Notes under the pieces: generated by a model
Told to the model about the DNA's origin: nothing
Databases searched by the model: none
The model's input: the letters and a program-made list of their open reading frames with translations, nothing else
Assembly: GCA_900110395.1 (NCBI GenBank)
Contig: FODP01000001.1
Location: 620,001 to 684,000 of the forward strand
Reading direction: 5' to 3'
Length of the DNA stretch: 64,000 nt
Origin: Rhodospirillales bacterium URHD0017
Lineage (GTDB): Bacteria > Pseudomonadota > Alphaproteobacteria > Reyranellales > Reyranellaceae
In this document: positions 13,617 through 22,782 of the stretch, piece after piece
Layout: the number at the start of each line of letters is the position of its first letter
Position numbering within the stretch: position 1 is the first letter of the stretch
Program-made: the position numbers and the translations under genes

Positions 13617-14570
13617 ATGAGACTGCTCGGCTGGCTGGCCGCGATCGCGGCGGCAGGCGCATTGCCGGCATCGGCGCAGGACTACCCTTCCAAGCCCATC
13701 CGCATCATCGCCCCGTTCGGGCCAGGCACCGCCACCGACACCGTGGCGCGCGTGATCGGCAACGAGATCGGCAAGCTCACCGGCCAGGCCGTGGTGATCG
13801 ACAACAAGCCCGGCGCCGAAGGCCAGATCGGCGCCCAGGCCGCCGCGACCGCCGCACCCGACGGCCACACCGTGTTCATCACCACCCAGACGACGCAGGC
13901 CATCAACCCGCACGTCTACAAGTCGCTGACCTACGACCCGGTGAAGAATTTCACGCCGGTCTGCGGCATCACGTTGGGCGCGCAGATCGTCATGGTGAAG
14001 AACGAGCTGCCGGTGAAGACGGTGGCCGAGTTCATCGCGCTGGCGAAGAAGGAGCCGGGCAAGCTCTCCTTCGGGAGCGGCAACGGTTCCAGCCGCGGCG
14101 GCGCCGAGCTGTTCCGCGTCATGGCCAAGATCGATCTTCTGGGCGTACCCTACAAATCGCAGCCCCAGGCCGTCAGCGACCTTCTGGGTAGCCGCCTCGA
14201 CATCATCTTCTCGGACTTCACCGCAGGCCTGCCGGCCGTGCTCGACGGCCGCGCACGCGGCATCGCCGTCACCAGCAAGAAGCCGATCCCGGGGCTGGAG
14301 CAGTTCCCGACGGTCGATTCGACGGTGCCCGGCTTCGAGATGTGGGCGTGGACGGCCGCTTACGTGCCGGCCGGCACGCCGCGGCCCATCGTCGACAAGC
14401 TCAACGCGCTGGTCCGCGAGGCGATGAAGTCGGAAGGTTATCTGACGCTCACACGGACGACTTACGGCATCCCGTTCCCCGGCACGCCCGAGGAGCTCGC
14501 GGCCTTCCAGGCCAGCGAGACCAAGAAGTGGGGCGAGATTGTCACTGTCGCGGGAATGAAGGAGCCGTAG
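13617..14570 (+). CDS. Tripartite tricarboxylate transporter (Bug-family) substrate-binding protein
   Basis: A 317-residue periplasmic receptor with signal peptide MRLLGWLAAIAAAGALPASA. The mature N-terminus DYPSKPIRIIAPFGPGTATDTVAR followed by QAVVIDNKPGAEGQIGA is diagnostic of the Bug/TctC family. The later NSSRGGAELF-type segment (reads GNGSSRGGAELF) and PYKSQPQAVSDLLG complete the pattern. Such receptors bind carboxylates and work with TctA/TctB, absent here; large numbers of orphan Bug genes are typical of certain Alpha- and Betaproteobacteria. It follows the two small genes on the same strand by 10 bases, with a GGGAGGACAGG leader. Confidence 0.92.
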   Translation: MRLLGWLAAIAAAGALPASAQDYPSKPIRIIAPFGPGTATDTVARVIGNEIGKLTGQAVVIDNKPGAEGQIGAQAAATAAPDGHTVFITTQTTQAINPHVYKSLTYDPVKNFTPVCGITLGAQIVMVKNELPVKTVAEFIALAKKEPGKLSFGSGNGSSRGGAELFRVMAKIDLLGVPYKSQPQAVSDLLGSRLDIIFSDFTAGLPAVLDGRARGIAVTSKKPIPGLEQFPTVDSTVPGFEMWAWTAAYVPAGTPRPIVDKLNALVREAMKSEGYLTLTRTTYGIPFPGTPEELAAFQASETKKWGEIVTVAGMKEP

Positions 14571-14645
14571 CTGGGGCCGCGCCACTCCAGTGGCGCGTCT
14601 TTGCTGGCACCACTACTGACGCGCGACTGGAGTCGCGCGCCCCCG
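14571..14645. repeat. Compound palindromic repeat, GGCGCGCCACTCC type
   Basis: Two small palindromes, GCGCCACTCCAGTGGCGC and GCGCGACTGGAGTCGCGC, are separated by a short spacer. The outer ends (CTGGGGCCGCGCCACTCC versus GGAGTCGCGCGCCCCCGG) also pair. It lies between the converging Bug-receptor and MFS genes, so may act as a two-way terminator, but has no T-tract. Confidence 0.8.
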
Positions 14646-15815
14646 GCGAGCCGCGGCGAGTTGCCAGGCGGCCGATACCAGCACGCAGGCCGCGACGCCC
14701 CAGAACGCCGCGCGATAGCTGACGACCGAGGCGATCAGCGCAAACAGCGGTGGCCCGAATACGGCACCTGAGAAGGCGAGGGCGGTCTGGACCGCCGCCA
14801 CGGCGGCCGTCTCGCCGGGCGGCGAGAGATGGGCGAACTGGGCCTGCGACGTGCCGTTCCAGCTGATGACGACCGAGCCGTAGCCGACGACGACCAGGGC
14901 GATCAGCCAGAACGGCGTGTCGGCCTCCAAAAGGCCGATGGCGACGCAGCCCAGGGTCATCGCTATGCCGGTCCAGCCCAGCACCACCATGCGCGGGATG
15001 CGGTCGCCGATCGCACCGCTCACCAGCCGCATGCCCGTCCCGGCGAGCTGCGAGATCGACAGCAGGAGGCCAGCGCGGGCGATGCTGAGATCGCAATGCT
15101 CGTAGAGATAGGTGACCAGATAGAAAGTGAAGGTGTGCTGGGCGATGACATAGACGAAGGCTGACCAGCCGAGCACGCGCAGCTGGGCGTGGCCCAGCAC
15201 GAAGCGGATCGAGCGCCAGATGCCGATCGACGGCGCGCTGGAGGCAACCGCGACATCGATGCGCGAGCGCAACAATTCGACGAACAGGATCGCGGCAAGG
15301 GCCATCGCGGCGGCAACCAGACTGGCGCCGCGCCAGCCGAAATGCGTCAGCAGGAAAGGGAAGACGACGCCGGCGAGGGCGAAGCCGATGGGCACACCGG
15401 TCTGCTTGATCGAGAATACGATGCCGAACCATTGGCGCGGCACGCGCTGGGCCAGCACATGTGCCGAGGCGGGATTGATCGGCCCTTGCGCGGCGCCGAT
15501 GAACATCACGGCGATCACGGTCGCCGCGACCAAGGCCAGGGCATTGAAGGCAAGCCCGATGGCTGCCATCAGCAACGCCATCTGGCAGATCCGCACCGCG
15601 CCCAGCCGCACGATCGGCCCGGCCGCGAACAGGGCCAGGACGGCGGCGACGGCGTAGATGATGGCCGTGAAGATGCCGACCAGCTTGGGGTCGATCGCGA
15701 GATCCTTCGCGACCGCCGGCATCATGACGCCGAGCGCCAGCACGCAGAGCGAGATCATCGCCTGGATGGCCAGCATGGTGGCCACCGGGACGATGGCGCT
15801 CCTCACAGCGCGCAC
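14613..15815 (-). CDS. Major facilitator superfamily transporter
   Basis: A 400-residue inner-membrane carrier with about 12 hydrophobic segments. It starts MRAVRSAIVPVATMLAIQAMIS and shows MFS features such as GPIVRLGAVRICQ (loop 2-3 region) and GAAQGPINPASAHVLAQRVPRQW, and second-half repeat motifs GMRLVSGAIGDRIPR. The substrate is not evident; carriers of this size commonly move organic acids. It is the last gene of the minus-strand cluster of CoA-linked enzymes, downstream of the CoA-ester lyase by about 50 bases, so uptake of the acid handled by that cluster is a reasonable inference. Its 3' end runs into the adjacent palindromic repeat: the final codons lie inside it. Confidence 0.88.
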   Translation of the reverse strand: MRAVRSAIVPVATMLAIQAMISLCVLALGVMMPAVAKDLAIDPKLVGIFTAIIYAVAAVLALFAAGPIVRLGAVRICQMALLMAAIGLAFNALALVAATVIAVMFIGAAQGPINPASAHVLAQRVPRQWFGIVFSIKQTGVPIGFALAGVVFPFLLTHFGWRGASLVAAAMALAAILFVELLRSRIDVAVASSAPSIGIWRSIRFVLGHAQLRVLGWSAFVYVIAQHTFTFYLVTYLYEHCDLSIARAGLLLSISQLAGTGMRLVSGAIGDRIPRMVVLGWTGIAMTLGCVAIGLLEADTPFWLIALVVVGYGSVVISWNGTSQAQFAHLSPPGETAAVAAVQTALAFSGAVFGPPLFALIASVVSYRAAFWGVAACVLVSAAWQLAAARRGRATPVARQ

Positions 15816-15866: not shown

Positions 15867-16781
15867 CTACATGCCGAACAGGTCGGCCTTGTTCAGCACC
15901 GTATTGCGCAGGATGCGGATCGAGGCGACGTCGACCATGATGCCGTCGACGTTGATGGCCCCCAGGCCCTTGGCCTCGGCCTCGGCATAGGCCTTCTCGA
16001 GCTTGCGGGCGCGGGCAATGTCCTCGGGCTTGGGCGAGTAGATCTCCAGCGCATGGTCGATCTGCGACGGATGGATCGCCCATTTGCCGACGCAGCCCAG
16101 GATCATCGAGCGACGGCACTCCTCGCGGTAGGCCTCGGGGTTCTTGAAGTCAGCGAACGGGCCATCGACCGGGTCGATGCCGGCCGCGCGGCAGGCCATG
16201 ACCAGGCGGAAGCGCGCATAGTGCCAGATGTCGCCGGGATAGCCGTCGGATTCGCCGACGTTCTTGTTGGTGACGCCCATCGAGGCCGAGAAGTCGCCCA
16301 TGCCGAACACCAGGCATTCGAGCCGCGGCGTCGACCTGGCGATGGCGTCGACGTTCTGCATGCCCTCGACCTCTTCGATGAGGGCTTCGAGGCCGATGCG
16401 GCGCTTGAGCTTCAACTTCTTCTCGAGCTGGTGCAGCAGCTTGTCGGCAAACAGGATGTCGGCTGGCGTCAGCACCTTGGTCATCATGATGGTGTCGAGA
16501 TGCTCGCCCGCGCCCTCGACCACCTCGATGATGTCCTCGAAGGCATACTCGGTGGTGAGGTCGTTGATGCGCACGCAGCGCGTCTTGCCCTTCCAGTTGA
16601 GCGTCTTCAGCGCCTCGACGATCTTCTTGCGCGCGTCGCGCTTCTGGCTGGGGGCGACGGCGTCCTCGAGGTCGAGGAAGACATGGTCGGCCTTCGACTC
16701 CGACGCCTTCTGCATCATCTTCTCGCTCGAACCGGGCGTGGAAAGCTGCACGCGGCGGGCGCGGCGCGGACGGTCGGTCAT
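15867..16781 (-). CDS. HpcH/HpaI-CitE family CoA-ester lyase
   Basis: A 304-residue TIM-barrel lyase of the citrate lyase beta-subunit type, which cleaves malyl-, methylmalyl- or citramalyl-CoA into a keto acid plus acyl-CoA. Motifs are LSTPGSSEKMMQKA (CoA binding), HVFLDLEDAVAPSQK with the conserved Glu/Asp, RCVRINDL, and the metal-site Glu in ALIEEVEGMQNVDAIA followed by GMGDFSASMG. Its length matches the single-domain lyases. In this cluster it would cleave the hydroxyacyl-CoA made by the MaoC hydratase(s). The GGAGAC site before the ATG lies directly after the CoA-transferase stop, so the two are coupled. Confidence 0.88.
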   Translation of the reverse strand: MTDRPRRARRVQLSTPGSSEKMMQKASESKADHVFLDLEDAVAPSQKRDARKKIVEALKTLNWKGKTRCVRINDLTTEYAFEDIIEVVEGAGEHLDTIMMTKVLTPADILFADKLLHQLEKKLKLKRRIGLEALIEEVEGMQNVDAIARSTPRLECLVFGMGDFSASMGVTNKNVGESDGYPGDIWHYARFRLVMACRAAGIDPVDGPFADFKNPEAYREECRRSMILGCVGKWAIHPSQIDHALEIYSPKPEDIARARKLEKAYAEAEAKGLGAINVDGIMVDVASIRILRNTVLNKADLFGM

Positions 16782-16792
16782 GTCATGTCTCC

Positions 16793-18013
16793 TCAGGCAA
16801 CGATCTTTTCGGCCCGCAGGCGCGCAATATCCGCGCCAGCAAGGCCGAGACGGGTCAGATACTCATCGGTGTGCTCGCCCAGCAAGGGGGCGCGATGGCG
16901 CACGCGGCCGGGCGTCTCGCTCATCTTGATGGCGACGCCGGCCACCTTCATGTCGCCGTCGAGGCCCGGGTGGGGCACGGACACCACCATGTCACGGGCG
17001 GCGAAGTGCGGGTTGGCGAAGACGTCGCGCACGTCGTTGACCGGCGCGAACGGCACCTGGCCGCCGAGATGGGCCAATAGCTCCTGCTTGGTGCGCTGGC
17101 TGGTGAAGGCCGACACGGCGGCGATGATCTCGTCCTGGTGCGCGCGGCGGTCCTGGACGGTGGAGAGGCGCGGGTCGCTGCCCATTTCCGGCCGGCCGAT
17201 CAGGCGGCAGAGGATGGGAAAGTGCGTGTCGGCGTGGGCGGCGATGGTGACGTGGCCGTCCTTGGCCGGGAACATGCCGAACGGGCAGAGCAGGGGGTGA
17301 TGGTTGCCCTCCGGCACCGGCACGCCGCCGGTGAAGGCGTGCTGGTGCACGATGCGCTCGCACATTGACAGGATGGCGTCGACCATGCCGACATCGACGA
17401 ATTGGCCCTTGCCGGTCTTGTGGGCACGCAGGATGGCGCTGACGATGCCGACCGCGCACATGGTGGCGGGCATCAGGTCGCCGACGCCGGGGCCGACCTT
17501 CATCGGCGTATCCTTGTCCGGTCCGGTGATCGCCATGACGCCGCCGAACGCCTGGGCCACCACGTCGTAGGCCGGCCAGTCGGTGTAGGGGCTTTTACCG
17601 GTGCGCCAGTCGCCGAAGCCGCGGATGGTCGCGTAGACCAGCTTGGGGAAGCGCTCGTGCAGGGTTTCGTAGCCGAGGCCGAGGCGGTCCATGACGCCGC
17701 CGCGATAGTTCTCGACCACCGCATCGGCGCCTTCGCACAGCCGCATCACCAGCTCGCGGCCTTCGGGCTGCTTCAGGTCGATGGCGATCGACTTCTTGTT
17801 GCGATTCACCGACGCGAAGTAGCCGCCGAAGGCTCTCAGCTTGTCGTCGGCATGGTAGGGCCCGACGATGCGCGTGTGGTCGCCGTCGAGCGGCTCGACC
17901 TTGATGATCTCGGCGCCCTGGTCGGCCAGCAGCATGGTGCAGAACGGCCCGGCCAGCATCTGTGTGAGATCGACGATGCGGACCCCATCGAGCGCTCCAA
18001 GGACGTCGCTCAT
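16793..18013 (-). CDS. CaiB/BaiF family CoA-transferase
   Basis: A 406-residue type III CoA-transferase that moves CoA between acids via an enzyme-bound aspartyl-CoA thioester. It shows the family opening GVRIVDLTQMLAGPFCTMLLADQGAEIIKVE, the CoA-binding segment VNRNKKSIAIDLKQPEGRE, and the catalytic-Asp region WPAYDVVAQAFGGVMAITG. C-terminal half includes HFAARDMVV. It probably activates the dicarboxylic acid whose CoA ester is then processed by the neighbouring hydratase and lyase. The start codon sits two bases from the foot of the palindrome at 18015-18075, whose GGAGG core, about 12 bases upstream, is the only Shine-Dalgarno-like sequence available. Confidence 0.9.
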   Translation of the reverse strand: MSDVLGALDGVRIVDLTQMLAGPFCTMLLADQGAEIIKVEPLDGDHTRIVGPYHADDKLRAFGGYFASVNRNKKSIAIDLKQPEGRELVMRLCEGADAVVENYRGGVMDRLGLGYETLHERFPKLVYATIRGFGDWRTGKSPYTDWPAYDVVAQAFGGVMAITGPDKDTPMKVGPGVGDLMPATMCAVGIVSAILRAHKTGKGQFVDVGMVDAILSMCERIVHQHAFTGGVPVPEGNHHPLLCPFGMFPAKDGHVTIAAHADTHFPILCRLIGRPEMGSDPRLSTVQDRRAHQDEIIAAVSAFTSQRTKQELLAHLGGQVPFAPVNDVRDVFANPHFAARDMVVSVPHPGLDGDMKVAGVAIKMSETPGRVRHRAPLLGEHTDEYLTRLGLAGADIARLRAEKIVA

Positions 18014-18014
18014 G

Positions 18015-18075
18015 CGGACCGCGGGCCTCCAGGCCCGCTCATGATCATGATGCGGGCCTGGAGGCCCGCGGTCCG
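18015..18075. repeat. Near-perfect palindromic repeat, GGACCGCGGGCCTCCAGG type
   Basis: Arms CGGACCGCGGGCCTCCAGG and its complement CCTGGAGGCCCGCGGTCCG are perfectly inverted, with a CTCATGATCATGATG-like loop. It is the clearest example of this type. It lies in a same-strand gap inside the CoA-enzyme cluster, immediately upstream of the CoA-transferase start, where it could attenuate transcription, stabilise mRNA, or mask the ribosome site within its own arm. Confidence 0.9.
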
Positions 18076-18083
18076 ATGAGTGC

Positions 18084-18563
18084 TCACTTCTCTCCCCAAT
18101 GGCTGCGCCGCTTGATCAGGACGGTGCGCTCGCCCTCGAAGATGTGCTTGTCGTCCTGGTTCACGCCGTAGTGCTTGAAGCGCACGATGCCGGCGTCGGC
18201 TTGCTTGGCGTCGCTGGTCTCCAGCACCTCGCTGTAACAATAGAGCGTGTCGCCGTGATAGAGGGGACCCTTGAGCCGGATCTTGTCCATGCCGAGCTCC
18301 ATCAGCGCGTTCTCGGCCGTGTCCTCGGCGGCGAGCCCGATGCACATGGAGATGGTGACGCCGCCGAAGCCCAGGCGCTGGCCGTAGTTGGTACCCTTGG
18401 TCAGGTGCTCGTTGAAGTGCGCTTCGGCGGTGTTCATGGTCACGTTGGTGATCCAGACCTGCTCCATGGGCTCGACGGTCTTGCCGCGCGCGTGTTTCAA
18501 CACGTCGCCGACCTTGAAGTCCTCGAAGTAGTTGTTCTTGCCGGTGAGGGAAGAGACCTTCAT
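18084..18563 (-). CDS. MaoC-family (hot-dog) dehydratase/hydratase
   Basis: A 159-residue single hot-dog protein beginning MKVSSLTGKNNYFEDFKVGDVLKHARGK, the usual MaoC N-terminus, followed by TMNTAEAHFNEHLTKG (hydratase loop region; a typical Asp is Asn/Thr here) and the pattern LYHGDTLYCYSEVLE. It ends in a helical RTVLIKRRS. MaoC enzymes add water to enoyl-CoA esters such as crotonyl-, mesaconyl- or itaconyl-CoA. Start and stop overlap the upstream acyl-CoA dehydrogenase gene (TGATG), so translation is coupled. A second, weakly similar MaoC gene lies on the other side of the dehydrogenase; the two may form a heterodimer. Confidence 0.88.
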   Translation of the reverse strand: MKVSSLTGKNNYFEDFKVGDVLKHARGKTVEPMEQVWITNVTMNTAEAHFNEHLTKGTNYGQRLGFGGVTISMCIGLAAEDTAENALMELGMDKIRLKGPLYHGDTLYCYSEVLETSDAKQADAGIVRFKHYGVNQDDKHIFEGERTVLIKRRSHWGEK

Positions 18564-19723
18564 CAATTCCTCCCGCGGCCGAGCAGACGGTCGGAGATGA
18601 TGCGCTTCTGGATCTCCGACGTGCCCTCGAAGATCTTTGTCAGCCGCGCATCGCGCCAGTGGCGCTCGACGGCATGCAGGGTGGTGTAGCCCGCGCCGCC
18701 ATGGATCTGGATGCCCTCGCTGCACACGCGCTCGGCCATCTCCGAAGCGAACAGCTTCACCATCGAGGCTTCCTTGTCGCAGCGCTGGCCGCTGTCGATC
18801 TGCTCGCAGACGAAGTAGTTGAGCTGGCGTGCCGCCTCGATCTGGGTCGCCATCTCGGCGATCTTGAAGCGGATCGCCTGGAACTCGGCGATCGACCGGC
18901 CGAACTGCTTGCGGTCGTTGGCGTACTTGATCGAATCGTCGAGCGCCCCCTGGGCCAGTCCGATGGCGCGAGCCGCGGTGTGTGCGCGCGCCGTCTCCAG
19001 GCCCGAGGTGGCGTAGTAGAAGGCATGGCCTTCCTCGCCGATCATGTTGTCGGCTTCGACGCGGAAATTGTCGAAGGCCAGCTCGTAGGTCTTCCAGCCG
19101 AAGTAGCCGATCTTGGGGATCGGCGCGCCGCTGCAGCCTTTGGGCAGCGTGCCGCGCTTCTTCTCGACGAAGAACATGGAGAGGCCCATGTGGCGCTTGC
19201 CCGGCGGCGCATCCGAGGTGCGGGCAATGATGATCAGGAAATCGGCGCCGTCGGCGAAGGTGCACCAGTATTTGTTGCCGCTGATCAGGTAGCCGGTGCC
19301 GTCCTTCTTGGCGCGGCAGGAGATGTTGGAGATGTCGGAGCCCGCATTGGGCTCGGACATGGAGAAGGCGCCCAAGAACTCGCCCTTGGCCATGCGCGGC
19401 AGATAGCGGGCGCGCTGCTCCTCGCTCATCATCTGCGCGCCGATCAAAAGGTTGCCGCGGGCGATCAGCGAGGCGACGCTCATCCAGCCGCGCGACAGCT
19501 CTTCGGTGACCAGGCAGTACTCGAAGCAGCCGAGACCCAGGCCGCCATACTGCTCCGGTATCAGGATGCCGAAGTAGCCGAGCTCGGCCATCTTGTCGCG
19601 AAGGTCCATCGGGATGTCGCCCTTCTCGGGATCGAGCTTGTTGGCGACGGGCAGGACCTCGTTGAGGGTGAATTCGCGCGCCTGCTCCTGGATCATGCGG
19701 CGCTCTTCGGTGATGTACGGCAT
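18563..19723 (-). CDS. Acyl-CoA dehydrogenase
   Basis: A 386-residue FAD-dependent dehydrogenase of the usual size. Motifs in order: the N-terminal helical part with PEQYGGLGLGCFEYCLV, the FAD/substrate region FLGAFSMSEPNAGSDISNI, SGNKYWCTFADGADFLI, and the C-terminal helical domain with QIHGGAGYT and RDARLTKIFEGTSEIQKRII, whose Glu in FEGTSE is the expected catalytic base. It would oxidise an acyl-CoA to the enoyl-CoA substrate of the neighbouring MaoC hydratases; substrates in related clusters include methylsuccinyl-, isobutyryl- and glutaryl-CoA. Sandwiched between two MaoC genes with overlapping or abutting ends, it clearly belongs to the same operon. Confidence 0.93.
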   Translation of the reverse strand: MPYITEERRMIQEQAREFTLNEVLPVANKLDPEKGDIPMDLRDKMAELGYFGILIPEQYGGLGLGCFEYCLVTEELSRGWMSVASLIARGNLLIGAQMMSEEQRARYLPRMAKGEFLGAFSMSEPNAGSDISNISCRAKKDGTGYLISGNKYWCTFADGADFLIIIARTSDAPPGKRHMGLSMFFVEKKRGTLPKGCSGAPIPKIGYFGWKTYELAFDNFRVEADNMIGEEGHAFYYATSGLETARAHTAARAIGLAQGALDDSIKYANDRKQFGRSIAEFQAIRFKIAEMATQIEAARQLNYFVCEQIDSGQRCDKEASMVKLFASEMAERVCSEGIQIHGGAGYTTLHAVERHWRDARLTKIFEGTSEIQKRIISDRLLGRGRN

Positions 19724-20209
19724 TTAGGCGTTCCTGAGACGGACGAGGTTGGTGCGCTTGAAGTCGATGGCGAGCTCTTCGCGCTGATTGAAGCCCTGGG
19801 TGTGCCAGGTGACGATGCCGAACCCCTTGTGGGAGTCCGAGACGCGCCGGTCGAGCACGACGGATTCGGCCCTGAGCGAATCGCCGGGATAGACGGCCTG
19901 ATGATAGGTGAGCTCGTTGACGCCGAGGAACGGTCCGCCGCCTTCGCTCAGGTCCTCGACGGTGAGGCCGAACACGGTGGTGAAGACCAGCAGCGGATTG
20001 ACGACGATGCCGGGATGGCCGTGCGCGCGGGCGTAGGCGGCGTTGTAGTAGTGCGGGTTGAAATGCAGCGTCAGGGTCGAGAAGAGCGTGCTCTCCGACT
20101 CGGTGACGGTGCGGCCCCAATGGTGCTTGAACACACGGCCGGGCTCGAAGTCCTCATAGCGGTTCCCTTTCGGGACCAGTCGGGCCCGCGTCCTGAAATC
20201 CTCTGCCAT
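19724..20209 (-). CDS. MaoC-family (hot-dog) dehydratase/hydratase
   Basis: A 161-residue hot-dog protein beginning MAEDFRTRARLVPKGNRYEDFEPGRVFKHHWG and continuing TLTLHFNPHYYNAAYARAHGHPGIVVNPLLVF, a hydratase-2-like loop in which the usual Asp-x4-His reads H-F-N-P-H. The C-terminus GIVTWHTQGFNQREELAIDFKRTNLV is the standard second-half strand pair. The start is at 20209 in preference to an upstream in-frame codon because MAEDF begins the fold and only 10 bases separate it from the PrpD gene stop. It abuts the acyl-CoA dehydrogenase gene and may pair with the other MaoC protein. Confidence 0.88.
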   Translation of the reverse strand: MAEDFRTRARLVPKGNRYEDFEPGRVFKHHWGRTVTESESTLFSTLTLHFNPHYYNAAYARAHGHPGIVVNPLLVFTTVFGLTVEDLSEGGGPFLGVNELTYHQAVYPGDSLRAESVVLDRRVSDSHKGFGIVTWHTQGFNQREELAIDFKRTNLVRLRNA

Positions 20210-20219
20210 TGCTACTCCG

Positions 20220-21569
20220 TCAGCTTTTCGTCGAAGCGCGCGCCAGCTCACCCACGTCACCGAGGCTGTCGATGCGCTCGATGGCGTCGGCCAGCCGTCG
20301 CGTGCCGGCGGCGCCCAGCACCGGGCTCACCAGGCTCTCGAATTTGGTCTCGATCGCCGCGCGCTGCTTTTTGACGTCGGCCCAGGGGATGCCGGAATCG
20401 TGGCTCGCCTCGATGGTCGAGCCGTCATCGAGCTGGATCGCCATCTCGGCCAGGGAGTGCTCCCAGTTGGGCTTGAACTCGATCGACACCTTGTCGCGCA
20501 GCGCCTTCATGCGCGGCTCCTGGGTGACGGCGTCGCTGTAGGAATCGAGCGCGGCCGTGTCGACGCCGTTCAGCGCCATCGCCACGGTCTGGCGCAACGA
20601 GAACTTGGCTTCGAGCCCGGTCGTCGGGTTGGGGATGTTGCAGACCTTGTCGGCACCGGCGTCGATCCTGAGCAGGATCTTCTTCACCCGCTCGGGCGGG
20701 AAGTTGCTCTTCAGCCGGATCTCCTTGGCGCATTCGATGGGCGCATGCGTGAGGTAGCAGGCGGCATGGTACTTGAAGAGGTTGTTGCGCAGGTGCCAGC
20801 CCTGCGGCGGTTCGCCCAGTGCTGCTTCGGCATTGAGATGGTCGCTCTGCGAGCAGGCGAAGCCCTGGTCGCACTCCAGCGAATCGCCGCGCGCCGTGAA
20901 GCCCTTGGCCGCCAGCCGCGCCGCGCGCAGGCCGTGCTCGGAGGCGGTACCGGCATGCAATGGCTTGCACATCGTGCCGAAGTTCGACTTCAGGCCGGCT
21001 GCCTGGGTGGCGGCAATGCCGAAGGCAACGGCGAGCTGCTTGTCGCTGAGGCCGAGCATGCGGCCGGCCGCGGCGGTGGCCGAGAACGAGCCGACGGTGC
21101 CGGTGACATGGAAGCCCTTCTGATAGTGGCTGGGCGAGACCAGGCGGCCGACGCGGCCCGAGGTCTCGTAGCCGGCGACAAAGCTCTCGATGAACAGCCG
21201 GCCCGACGCCTTGATCTGCTCGCCCAGCGCCAGCAGGGCGGGGACCACGGTGACCGTCGGATGGCCGCCCATTGAGAAGTTGACGTCGTCGTAGTCGAGC
21301 GCGTGGCTCGCCGCCCCATTGATCAGGGTCGCGGCCGAGGGCAGGACCTTCTCGGCCCGGCCGACCAGCGAGGCCTGGCCCTTGGCGCCGTCCTCCAGCG
21401 CCTCGCGCACCAGGATGTCGGTCAGCTCCTCCTGCGCGCCGGGCACGGTGACGGCGAACCAGTCGAGCAGGCATTGCTTCGTGCGCTCGACAAGATCGGC
21501 CGGCAGGTCGTTCCAGGCCAGGACGGCGGCGCGACGGGCGATTTCGGCGGTGACGGGGACAGCGGCCAT
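20220..21569 (-). CDS. MmgE/PrpD family protein
   Basis: A 449-residue cytosolic protein of the family that includes 2-methylcitrate dehydratase (PrpD) and cis-aconitate decarboxylase. Family blocks are visible: AVLAWNDLPADLVERTKQCLLDWFAVT, LINGAASHALDYDDVNFSMGGHPTVTVVPALLAL with the HALDYDD active-site block, HVTGTVGSFSATAAAGRML, and LKSNFGTMCKPLHAGTASEHGL (active-site His). Which reaction it performs cannot be decided from sequence; with CoA-transferase, MaoC and lyase genes downstream, making or consuming a C5/C6 unsaturated acid is plausible. The start at 21569 has a GGAGG site; an upstream extension exists but lacks family homology. First gene of the cluster. Confidence 0.9.
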   Translation of the reverse strand: MAAVPVTAEIARRAAVLAWNDLPADLVERTKQCLLDWFAVTVPGAQEELTDILVREALEDGAKGQASLVGRAEKVLPSAATLINGAASHALDYDDVNFSMGGHPTVTVVPALLALGEQIKASGRLFIESFVAGYETSGRVGRLVSPSHYQKGFHVTGTVGSFSATAAAGRMLGLSDKQLAVAFGIAATQAAGLKSNFGTMCKPLHAGTASEHGLRAARLAAKGFTARGDSLECDQGFACSQSDHLNAEAALGEPPQGWHLRNNLFKYHAACYLTHAPIECAKEIRLKSNFPPERVKKILLRIDAGADKVCNIPNPTTGLEAKFSLRQTVAMALNGVDTAALDSYSDAVTQEPRMKALRDKVSIEFKPNWEHSLAEMAIQLDDGSTIEASHDSGIPWADVKKQRAAIETKFESLVSPVLGAAGTRRLADAIERIDSLGDVGELARASTKS

Positions 21570-22065: not shown

Positions 22066-22782
22066 CTACAGCGGGGAAAGAAGACCGCTTCTGCCGGCTT
22101 TCTTCTCGAACCAGGCGCCGACAAAATCGCCGATGGTGCGAATGCGATAGGCTTGGCCGCTGCTCGAGAGGAAGTCGTGCGTGGCCCGCGCGCAACCATC
22201 CCAGAAATAGTAGTCATCGAGAATGACCCGGGCGTCGTCGGTGGTGTGCGGCAGGAGCGTGTCGAGCACGAAGCGGACCGGCTCGTACCAGTCGGCATCG
22301 ACCCGGAGGAGGGCGATGCCTTCACGCCCCAGGGTCGTCGTCTTGGACGGCAGCGTATCGGAAAACCAGCCGGGCACGACGCGACACTCTTCGTCTGAGA
22401 ACCCGAAGAGCTTGATCGCGATCCGCACGTCCTCGAGAGCAGCGGTGCAGTTGTCGTAGTAGTACGCACTGTCGACATCGCGTTGGTAAGCCTTTGCCAA
22501 GGGGCCGTCCCGTTCGTCGGCTGGCGGCAATCCCTGGAAGCTGTCGAACATCCAGACCGGCTTGACGATCTTGCCGTATTTGTAGCGCTGCACCAGCAGC
22601 ATGCCGAAGCTGCAACCGCCTTTCCAGGTGCCGCATTCGACGATGCTCCCCTTCATATCCAGTTCGATGCAGTGAAGGGCGCTCTCGAGCGTGAAGAGCA
22701 GGGCTGCTTGCGGGACCATGGTGTACGGGGCGACTTCCCGGCAGACCCTGTGGAGGATCTCTTGGTCTTGCGCACTTTCCAC
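22066..22782 (-). CDS. TylF/MycF-family O-methyltransferase
   Basis: A 238-residue SAM-dependent enzyme of the macrocin O-methyltransferase family. The motifs are IVECGTWKGGCSFGMLL (SAM binding), VWMFDSFQGLPP, the DEECRVVPGWFSDTLP region, IALLRVDADWYEP (metal/catalytic Asp block) and RVILDDYYFWDGC. TylF methylates sugars on macrolides; many bacterial members methylate cell-surface sugars or small metabolites, and no antibiotic cluster is present here. The family's typical length is about 240-260. It is separated by a 77-base gap from another methyltransferase on the same strand, and that gap holds a short palindrome. Confidence 0.85.
   Translation of the reverse strand: MESAQDQEILHRVCREVAPYTMVPQAALLFTLESALHCIELDMKGSIVECGTWKGGCSFGMLLVQRYKYGKIVKPVWMFDSFQGLPPADERDGPLAKAYQRDVDSAYYYDNCTAALEDVRIAIKLFGFSDEECRVVPGWFSDTLPSKTTTLGREGIALLRVDADWYEPVRFVLDTLLPHTTDDARVILDDYYFWDGCARATHDFLSSSGQAYRIRTIGDFVGAWFEKKAGRSGLLSPL

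Follow-up and report, generated by a model that had tools for sequence, protein, structure and literature searches.

In Pseudomonas aeruginosa and Cupriavidus necator, the itaconate cluster ich-mcd-mmgE-ict-ccl (PMC12290011, PMC9875883) combines a CoA-transferase, a MaoC-type hydratase, a lyase, an acyl-CoA dehydrogenase and an MmgE/PrpD protein. The last of these isomerises methylsuccinate, and methylsuccinyl-C4-CoA is oxidised by the dehydrogenase (PMC12290011); growth data exist for clusters of this type (PMC9875883), the genes PA0878-0886 have been placed in Pseudomonas putida KT2440, and in P. aeruginosa, whose itaconate carrier belongs to the tripartite ATP-independent periplasmic (TRAP) type (PMC12599236), the transporter PA0884-PA0886 lies beside the cluster. 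In the methylaspartate cycle of Haloarcula hispanica, mesaconate is converted to propionyl-CoA and glyoxylate by a chain that includes the CoA-transferase Mct and the mesaconyl-CoA hydratase Mch (Hah_1336, Hah_1340; PMC5592240). The lower half of the ethylmalonyl-CoA pathway (Mcd, MeaC/Mch, Mcl1) follows the same reaction order from methylsuccinyl-C1-CoA, and the Rip operon of Yersinia (RipA/RipB/RipC) holds a CoA-transferase, a MaoC protein and an HpcH lyase. Here we describe a six-gene cluster with likenesses to all of these systems, found in a 64,000-nt stretch of DNA (the window) from the 8.18 Mb genome of Rhodospirillales bacterium URHD0017 (G000).

The cluster forms a single run on the minus strand (21569-15867), delineated from open reading frames and Pfam matches, in which neighbouring genes overlap or are separated by short gaps. 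It encodes, in this order, an MmgE/PrpD family protein (449 aa, 20220..21569; PF03972, 206 bits, and PF19305, 82 bits), a first MaoC protein, MaoC1 (161 aa, 19724..20209; PF19315 and PF01575), an acyl-CoA dehydrogenase (386 aa, 18563..19723; PF00441 and PF02771), a second MaoC protein, MaoC2 (159 aa, 18084..18563; PF19315 and PF01575), a class III CoA-transferase (406 aa, 16793..18013; PF02515, 436 bits) and an HpcH/HpaI-family CoA-ester lyase (304 aa, 15867..16781; PF03328, 130 bits). This set, together with a carrier of the major facilitator superfamily (MFS), had been recognised in a sequence-only reading of the window, and all six genes indeed lie where that reading placed them, on the minus strand.

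We propose that the cluster encodes a catabolic route in which methylsuccinate and mesaconate would be degraded through C1-CoA esters to propionyl-CoA and glyoxylate, a reading that we hold to be reasonably probable. The acid would be taken up by a carrier (MFS here, TRAP of the DctPQM kind in some other hosts), and the (S)- and (R)-forms of methylsuccinate would be interconverted by the MmgE/PrpD protein. The CoA-transferase would transfer CoA from succinyl-CoA to the C1 carboxyl, the dehydrogenase would convert methylsuccinyl-C1-CoA to mesaconyl-C1-CoA, and MaoC1 and MaoC2, acting as one hydratase, would generate beta-methylmalyl-CoA, MaoC2 supplying the catalytic Asn/His and MaoC1 the Ser and Arg of the substrate pocket. 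The action of an Mcl1-type lyase on beta-methylmalyl-CoA would finally release propionyl-CoA and glyoxylate. Each of these activities, like the regiochemistry, is predicted from sequence, and the identity of the substrate is the weakest link in the chain.

The two MaoC proteins look like one enzyme in two pieces. On the Mch model PF19315 (353 positions), MaoC1 covers positions 14-168 and MaoC2 positions 225-353. A MaoC tree was built from 18 cluster loci, picked to avoid near-copies, with the halves of five fused hydratases added; a branch with 99/100 support, recovered in all 200 bootstrap trees, separates all the MaoC2 proteins and the Mch C-halves from the MaoC1 proteins, the Mch N-halves and two Ich-like proteins. 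The same correspondence is seen at the level of residues. In the Methylorubrum hydratase 8HGN, one of the structures named in PMC10164722 together with 4E3E, malate is bound by Asn226 and His231, both proposed to be catalytic, with further contacts from Ser79, Arg142, Phe71 and Tyr248 and from the backbone of Asn85 and Gly249 (PMC10164722). Asn44, His49 and Gly67 of MaoC2 are the equivalents of Asn226, His231 and Gly249, and Ser88 and Arg152 of MaoC1 those of Ser79 and Arg142, each of them present in 24 of 24 alignment rows; Asn85 is replaced by Phe in all 19 split genes, at a position where the contact is made by the backbone. MaoC1 lacks the catalytic Asn/His pair in the alignment, and the arrangement that characterises a two-MaoC-domain Mch, with Asn/His in the second domain and Ser/Arg in the first, is provided by the two genes jointly and not by one polypeptide, the 1.2 kb dehydrogenase gene lying between them. 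The Ich-like protein of another cluster (L133), a single-gene enzyme taken as a control, also has the Ser and the Arg, so that these two residues mark the active site and not the substrate.

The scores of the two MaoC genes with the RipB_Ich model (NF038241) are 100 and 92 bits, for a cut-off of 340. In Cupriavidus oxalaticus, a divergent fused Mch of 353 aa is found beside a dehydrogenase (71% identity), an MmgE protein (41%) and a CoA-transferase (58%) that resemble those of the window, which supports the equivalence of the MaoC pair and Mch. Most bacterial relatives of the haloarchaeal Mch are described as single-domain proteins that resemble its N-terminal domain (PMC5592240), and a second MaoC gene such as the one observed here may be the explanation for them. 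From the match between the two proteins and the two halves of the hydratase, we infer that MaoC1 and MaoC2 form a heteromer.

The profile evidence on the CoA-transferase points to the C1 ester. Its best NCBIfam model is NF041294 (succinyl-CoA:mesaconate CoA-transferase), with 458 bits against 285 for the next one, a lead of 173 bits at a score below the curated cut-off of 700. NF041294 also ranks first for all six transferases scanned, those of the window and of five related clusters (410-473 bits, next model 268-315, each short of the cut-off), and a different model ranks first for the transferase of L133, the cluster with the Ich-like MaoC protein. The haloarchaeal Mct makes mesaconyl-C1-CoA as its sole ester; its activity is low with itaconate and high with methylsuccinate, the latter being regarded by the authors as a side activity (PMC5592240). 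We propose that the window enzyme is a succinyl-CoA:mesaconate/methylsuccinate CoA-transferase that would form the C1 ester.

The lyase, whose best solved relatives are 5ugr (266 bits) and 4l9y (228 bits), is proposed to be a beta-methylmalyl-CoA lyase of the Mcl1 type. In a tree of the window lyase with 27 relatives, eight solved relatives and four paralogues from G000, the window-type lyases and the Mcl structures 5ugr, 4l9y and 4l7z form one clade (100/98), outside which fall RipC (3qll), CLYBL (5vxc), 6aq4, CitE and the four paralogues. We take 3qll to be RipC of Yersinia, 5vxc CLYBL, 6aq4 Rv2498c and 4l7z the Mcl of Chloroflexus, the species labels of 5ugr and 4l9y being assumed in the same way. 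RipC represents the lyase of the itaconate route in this tree, which includes no protein known as the P. aeruginosa Ccl. A tree constrained to unite RipC and the window-type lyases to the exclusion of Mcl was rejected by the approximately unbiased (AU) test (p-AU 0.009), as was one in which RipC and CLYBL together took this place (p-AU 0.0006), the groups for both tests having been chosen after inspection of the tree. Over aligned residues, the window lyase is 47% identical to 5ugr, 43% to 4l9y, 35% to 4l7z and 36% to RipC, and its inserted loop is shorter than in the three Mcl structures. The active-site numbering assumed for RsMcl1 did not fit the sequence and was not used.

The dehydrogenase is proposed to act on methylsuccinyl-C1-CoA. 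Its best solved relative is 6es9 (304 bits), which we take to be the methylsuccinyl-CoA dehydrogenase of Paracoccus and of which it lacks the N-terminal ~165 residues; with the dehydrogenases of the other clusters, it forms a clade of its own (97/86). Orthology with the dehydrogenase of the Ich-like cluster L133 was rejected, the L133 enzyme grouping with FadE3 (4iv6). A Shinella cluster, reached by searching plasmids with the L133 MmgE, has the same five enzyme classes, but its MaoC protein has 278 aa and its dehydrogenase stands far from that of the window in the tree. On another contig of G000 (C30, L123:6527-9466), a dehydrogenase 71% identical to that of the window is accompanied by a TctC-like gene and an Asp/Glu racemase family protein, the other cluster genes being absent beside it.

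The MmgE/PrpD protein is proposed to be a methylsuccinate (S)-(R) isomerase, with methylsuccinate as its predicted substrate. The site of the known isomerase comprises a catalytic His and Tyr (two-base) and a substrate-binding His/Glu/His/Lys/Lys set (PMC12290011), and the window protein has His89, Asp92, His103, Tyr149, His154, Lys202 and Lys266, their correspondence with the published residues being judged from motifs and spacing instead of an alignment. The same residue set is carried by IRG1 of B. subtilis. In an alignment, Tyr149 corresponds to a Tyr in IDS-epimerase and to a Met in the cis-aconitate decarboxylase 12vt, and on this residue the decarboxylase role that the sequence-only reading had hinted at for this protein was rejected. 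A region of Bosea considered as a reference for the Pseudomonas-type isomerase was discarded, as its gene set is different, and the MmgE relatives on Cupriavidus and Variovorax plasmids had no Pseudomonas-type cluster there. Two further relatives were encountered: on the megaplasmid of Cupriavidus metallidurans CH34 (L137:4376-7875), the MmgE gene of a related cluster is split, with ~3.5 kb between its matched parts, and on a plasmid of Limimaricola variabilis (L142:2225-9341), a related MmgE (41%) stands in a different gene set, with 3-oxoacid CoA-transferase subunits, a citryl-CoA lyase, a CoA-ester lyase, a nitronate monooxygenase and a long acyl-CoA dehydrogenase.

To follow the conservation of the cluster, 78 loci were retrieved from named records with the CoA-transferase as the sole query, and the other window proteins were then mapped onto them; the sample is biased to Reyranella because this query came from the window, the closest named isolate by CoA-transferase being Reyranella soli (97% identity). 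All six genes keep their order and shared strand in 47 of the 78 loci, and clustering exceeds chance. Five genes stand in order up to a contig edge in three loci, and the CoA-transferase and lyase are kept with the upstream part cut off in 10. Another five loci (L040, L041, L063, L064 and L072) have five genes in order with no MmgE match just upstream; among these, L072, from a metagenome-assembled genome of Chloroflexi, cannot be judged for MmgE, as only ~0.9 kb of contig lies upstream and its first MaoC is in two pieces. The arrangement is different in 13 loci, several with the CoA-transferase alone, and in Bradyrhizobium campsiandrae (L061) all six genes are present with the lyase ahead of the CoA-transferase.

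The same six genes occur in the same order on plasmids of Variovorax boronicumulans, Tistrella mobilis (pTM1) and Pseudosulfitobacter pseudonitzschiae, and on the 17.8 kb plasmid p9 of Paracoccus sp. SCSIO 75233. In three of these hosts, Tistrella, Paracoccus and Pseudosulfitobacter, genes for a DctPQM-type TRAP carrier lie next to the cluster; downstream in Tistrella there are also an IclR gene and then an MFS gene. The Variovorax cluster is adjoined by an ATP-binding cassette (ABC) carrier and followed by beta-oxidation genes. In Sphingomonas panacis, the run is reduced to MaoC1-MaoC2-CoA-transferase-lyase, with neither MmgE nor dehydrogenase in it and with a dehydrogenase 62% identical to that of the window ~5 kb away, a gene set that is as expected for the use of mesaconate alone.

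In a sample of the class, one even draw of 144 genomes with completeness of at least 90%, both hydratase halves lie at most 2 kb apart in 10 genomes among the matches listed, with a dehydrogenase-sized gap in seven. A lyase at least 57% identical to that of the window is present in 11 of the 144 genomes (E <=1e-45), including all 10 with the split MaoC pair, and 52 other genomes have a lyase match at this threshold, with an identity of at most 51%. At the same threshold, a second, lower-scoring lyase is found in six of the 11 and none in G000, G055, G043, G105 and G015. G105 also has a second split-hydratase cluster (L125:8046-11177), with the order MaoC1-MaoC2-lyase-dehydrogenase and no CoA-transferase match, so that the CoA ester there may come from elsewhere.

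When the cluster is set against the described systems, it differs from ich-mcd-mmgE-ict-ccl in that its lyase is of the Mcl1 type, its hydratase is encoded by two half-size genes, its CoA-transferase is nearest to a C1-specific mesaconate enzyme, and its predicted products are propionyl-CoA and glyoxylate instead of acetyl-CoA and pyruvate. On our best reading, the differences from that five-gene cluster would lie in the activated carboxyl, the architecture of the hydratase, the clade of the lyase and the products. The haloarchaeal system, whose Mct profile fits the window CoA-transferase best and whose Mch halves match MaoC1 and MaoC2, has the same chain from mesaconate as the one proposed here; in the window the hydratase is split, and a dehydrogenase and an MmgE protein are added, and the run contains no gene for glutamate mutase or methylaspartate ammonia-lyase (the genome was not searched for them). 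With respect to the ethylmalonyl-CoA pathway, whose Mcl1 clade is shared by the window lyase, the window dehydrogenase is shorter at its N-terminus and forms its own clade, the hydratase is split, and the predicted starting compounds are free acids. The Rip operon differs in its lyase, RipC falling outside the clade of the window lyase, and in its CoA-transferase, RipA belonging to a class other than III whereas the window enzyme is of class III. No description of this cluster was found among the titles, abstract openings and passages surveyed, in a search that left out most subscription papers.

Several observations weigh against the route through C1-CoA esters. None of the six cluster proteins reaches an NCBIfam cut-off. 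The lyase is matched best by RipC_Ccl (NF038242; 163 bits, cut-off 375), followed by citE (160) and the haloarchaeal malyl-CoA lyase (104), and MaoC2, with its 100 bits for RipB_Ich, scores only 81 bits with the haloarchaeal hydratase. In the trees, the two Ich-like proteins are found on the side of the N-halves, the clade of the dehydrogenase is not joined to 6es9, and for the lyase tree the program warned that the branches of RipC, CLYBL, 4l7z and others are long and that these sequences may be excluded in error. Among the solved relatives of the dehydrogenase, 8ciw, named as a (2S)-methylsuccinyl-CoA dehydrogenase, ranks only 37th, and the MmgE protein has Asp92 for Glu91 of the P. aeruginosa methylsuccinate isomerase. 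The gene context is not uniform either: next to the fused Mch of Cupriavidus stands a remote lyase of the HpcH family, which gives no match to the window lyase, the lyase of G043 is ~21 kb from the MaoC pair, and L040, L041, L063 and L064 keep the gene order with no nearby upstream MmgE match. Furthermore, the haloarchaeal Mch prefers C1 over C4 only 3.5-fold and the Mcl of Chloroflexus cleaves citramalyl-CoA as well (PMC5592240), so that the lyase and the hydratase alone leave the regiochemistry unfixed.

The alternative that survives best is that the same chemistry acts on another 2-substituted succinate, the products being a longer acyl-CoA and glyoxylate. All five enzyme types would handle a longer side chain alike, the profile scores that fall short of every cut-off would allow it, and the beta-oxidation genes that follow the Variovorax cluster are in line with it. 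We nevertheless consider it unlikely, since, for the CoA-transferase, the hydratase and the lyase alike, the nearest characterised relatives have methyl-branched C5 compounds as substrates, and no gene common across the hosts hints at a longer chain in the neighbourhoods that were annotated or scanned.

Slightly less probable still is a route like that of Pseudomonas and Cupriavidus, in which itaconate (or methylsuccinate) would be activated to C4-CoA esters and degraded by way of (S)-citramalyl-CoA, with acetyl-CoA and pyruvate as the products. This was in essence what the sequence-only reading had put forward when it named itaconate breakdown by enzymes of the Rip/Ich/Ccl kind, with citramalyl-CoA as an intermediate, within a broader suggestion of a branched C5 dicarboxylate route of itaconate or mesaconate type. 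Its C5 acid and its mesaconate type fit the cluster well; its itaconate part fits less well. The best NCBIfam matches of the lyase and of MaoC2 are RipC_Ccl and RipB_Ich, so that some scores still put the Rip models first, and 4l7z, presumably the Chloroflexus enzyme with citramalyl-CoA activity, shares the clade of the window lyase. The gene types, too, are the five of the itaconate and methylsuccinate cluster of C. necator and P. aeruginosa (PMC12290011). Against this stand the placement of the lyase, which that reading had offered as a check and which puts the enzyme with the malyl-/beta-methylmalyl-CoA lyases, RipC being outside and its grouping with the window-type lyases rejected; the CoA-transferase, nearest to the C1-specific mesaconate enzyme; and the two half-size MaoC genes, which match the halves of Mch where one Ich would be expected. 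The acetyl-CoA and pyruvate that had been suggested as products belong to the part that fits less well. In addition, contig C13 of G000 has a separate locus (L094:4738-9162) in which a CoA-ester lyase and an acyl-CoA dehydrogenase accompany a MaoC protein closer to RipB/Ich (146 bits). Itaconate may be used in G000 through this locus, though its lyase is hardly nearer to Ccl (170 bits with RipC_Ccl, 163 for the window lyase).

The relation of the cluster to the ethylmalonyl-CoA pathway deserves a separate account. G000 has a Ccr (608 bits), which is followed on contig C23 by a dehydrogenase that pairs with 6es9 at 100/100 and has an apparently long N-terminal part; the supposition that the window dehydrogenase was the only Mcd-like one of the genome was therefore wrong. 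The supposed absence of a canonical Mch was refuted likewise by a 356-aa two-domain Mch on contig C19 (468 bits to 8HGN). Two B12-dependent mutases are present. No full isocitrate lyase was found in G000, the three matches over the Pfam cut-off being partial (best 55 bits, 89 of 526 positions), and no other lyase of the genome exceeds 104 bits against the window lyase. As the only Mcl1-type lyase found in G000, the window lyase may also serve the ethylmalonyl-CoA pathway, and we infer that it is the likeliest beta-methylmalyl-CoA lyase for it. That the cluster is chiefly the lower half of this pathway, or operates in the opposite direction and assimilates glyoxylate together with propionyl-CoA, is nonetheless improbable in spite of this gene complement (Ccr with its adjoining 6es9-type dehydrogenase, two-domain Mch and two mutases, with neither a full isocitrate lyase nor another Mcl1-type lyase), because other loci of the genome already encode that dehydrogenase and the canonical Mch, the pathway would have no need of a CoA-transferase or of an isomerase for free acids, the Paracoccus plasmid carries the cluster with its own TRAP carrier, and the window-type lyase is accompanied by a second, lower-scoring Mcl in six of its 11 genomes.

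Combining these elements, we tentatively put forward, with slightly less than even confidence in the whole, an undescribed and horizontally mobile route by which both forms of methylsuccinate, as well as mesaconate, would yield propionyl-CoA and glyoxylate by way of C1-CoA esters. This route would be the counterpart, in its regiochemistry, of the C4 route of Pseudomonas, with an obligate two-subunit hydratase and with a lyase that in Reyranella would also complete the ethylmalonyl-CoA pathway. If this holds true, bacteria would possess two parallel methylsuccinate routes that share their enzyme classes and are set apart by the carboxyl that bears the CoA, hence by their products; methylsuccinate would gain further support as a real environmental nutrient, and a carbon-assimilation enzyme would exist in a two-subunit form. 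It would also call for caution before every CoA-transferase/MaoC/lyase cluster is labelled as itaconate degradation.

The genes around the cluster are conserved to different degrees. The MFS carrier (400 aa, 14613..15815, minus strand; PF07690, 114 bits) lies downstream of the lyase in the same direction and is a possible carrier for the uptake of the acid, this substrate being a prediction; a match on the same strand within 2 kb of the lyase is present in 45 of the 60 loci that have at least 2.5 kb downstream. The gene of a TctC-like periplasmic binding protein (13617..14570, plus strand) is convergent to the cluster, and its membership is uncertain. This protein has no match among the NCBIfam models and is 31% identical to the product of an L141 gene annotated as a tripartite tricarboxylate transporter substrate-binding protein. 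Of the 53 loci with at least 4.5 kb of downstream sequence, 30 have a match within that distance, on the opposite strand. Between the MaoC2 and CoA-transferase genes, the palindrome at 18010..18083 is a dispersed repeat with no part in the function of the cluster: an 81-base query gave at least 79 matches in the genome, mostly on both strands of ~40 places, a lower bound in that 40 of 146 candidates were scored. Upstream of the cluster and on the same strand, a TylF-like methyltransferase gene (22066-22782; PF05711) has a match above 100 bits in only one of the 78 fetched loci (L006) and is therefore probably unrelated.

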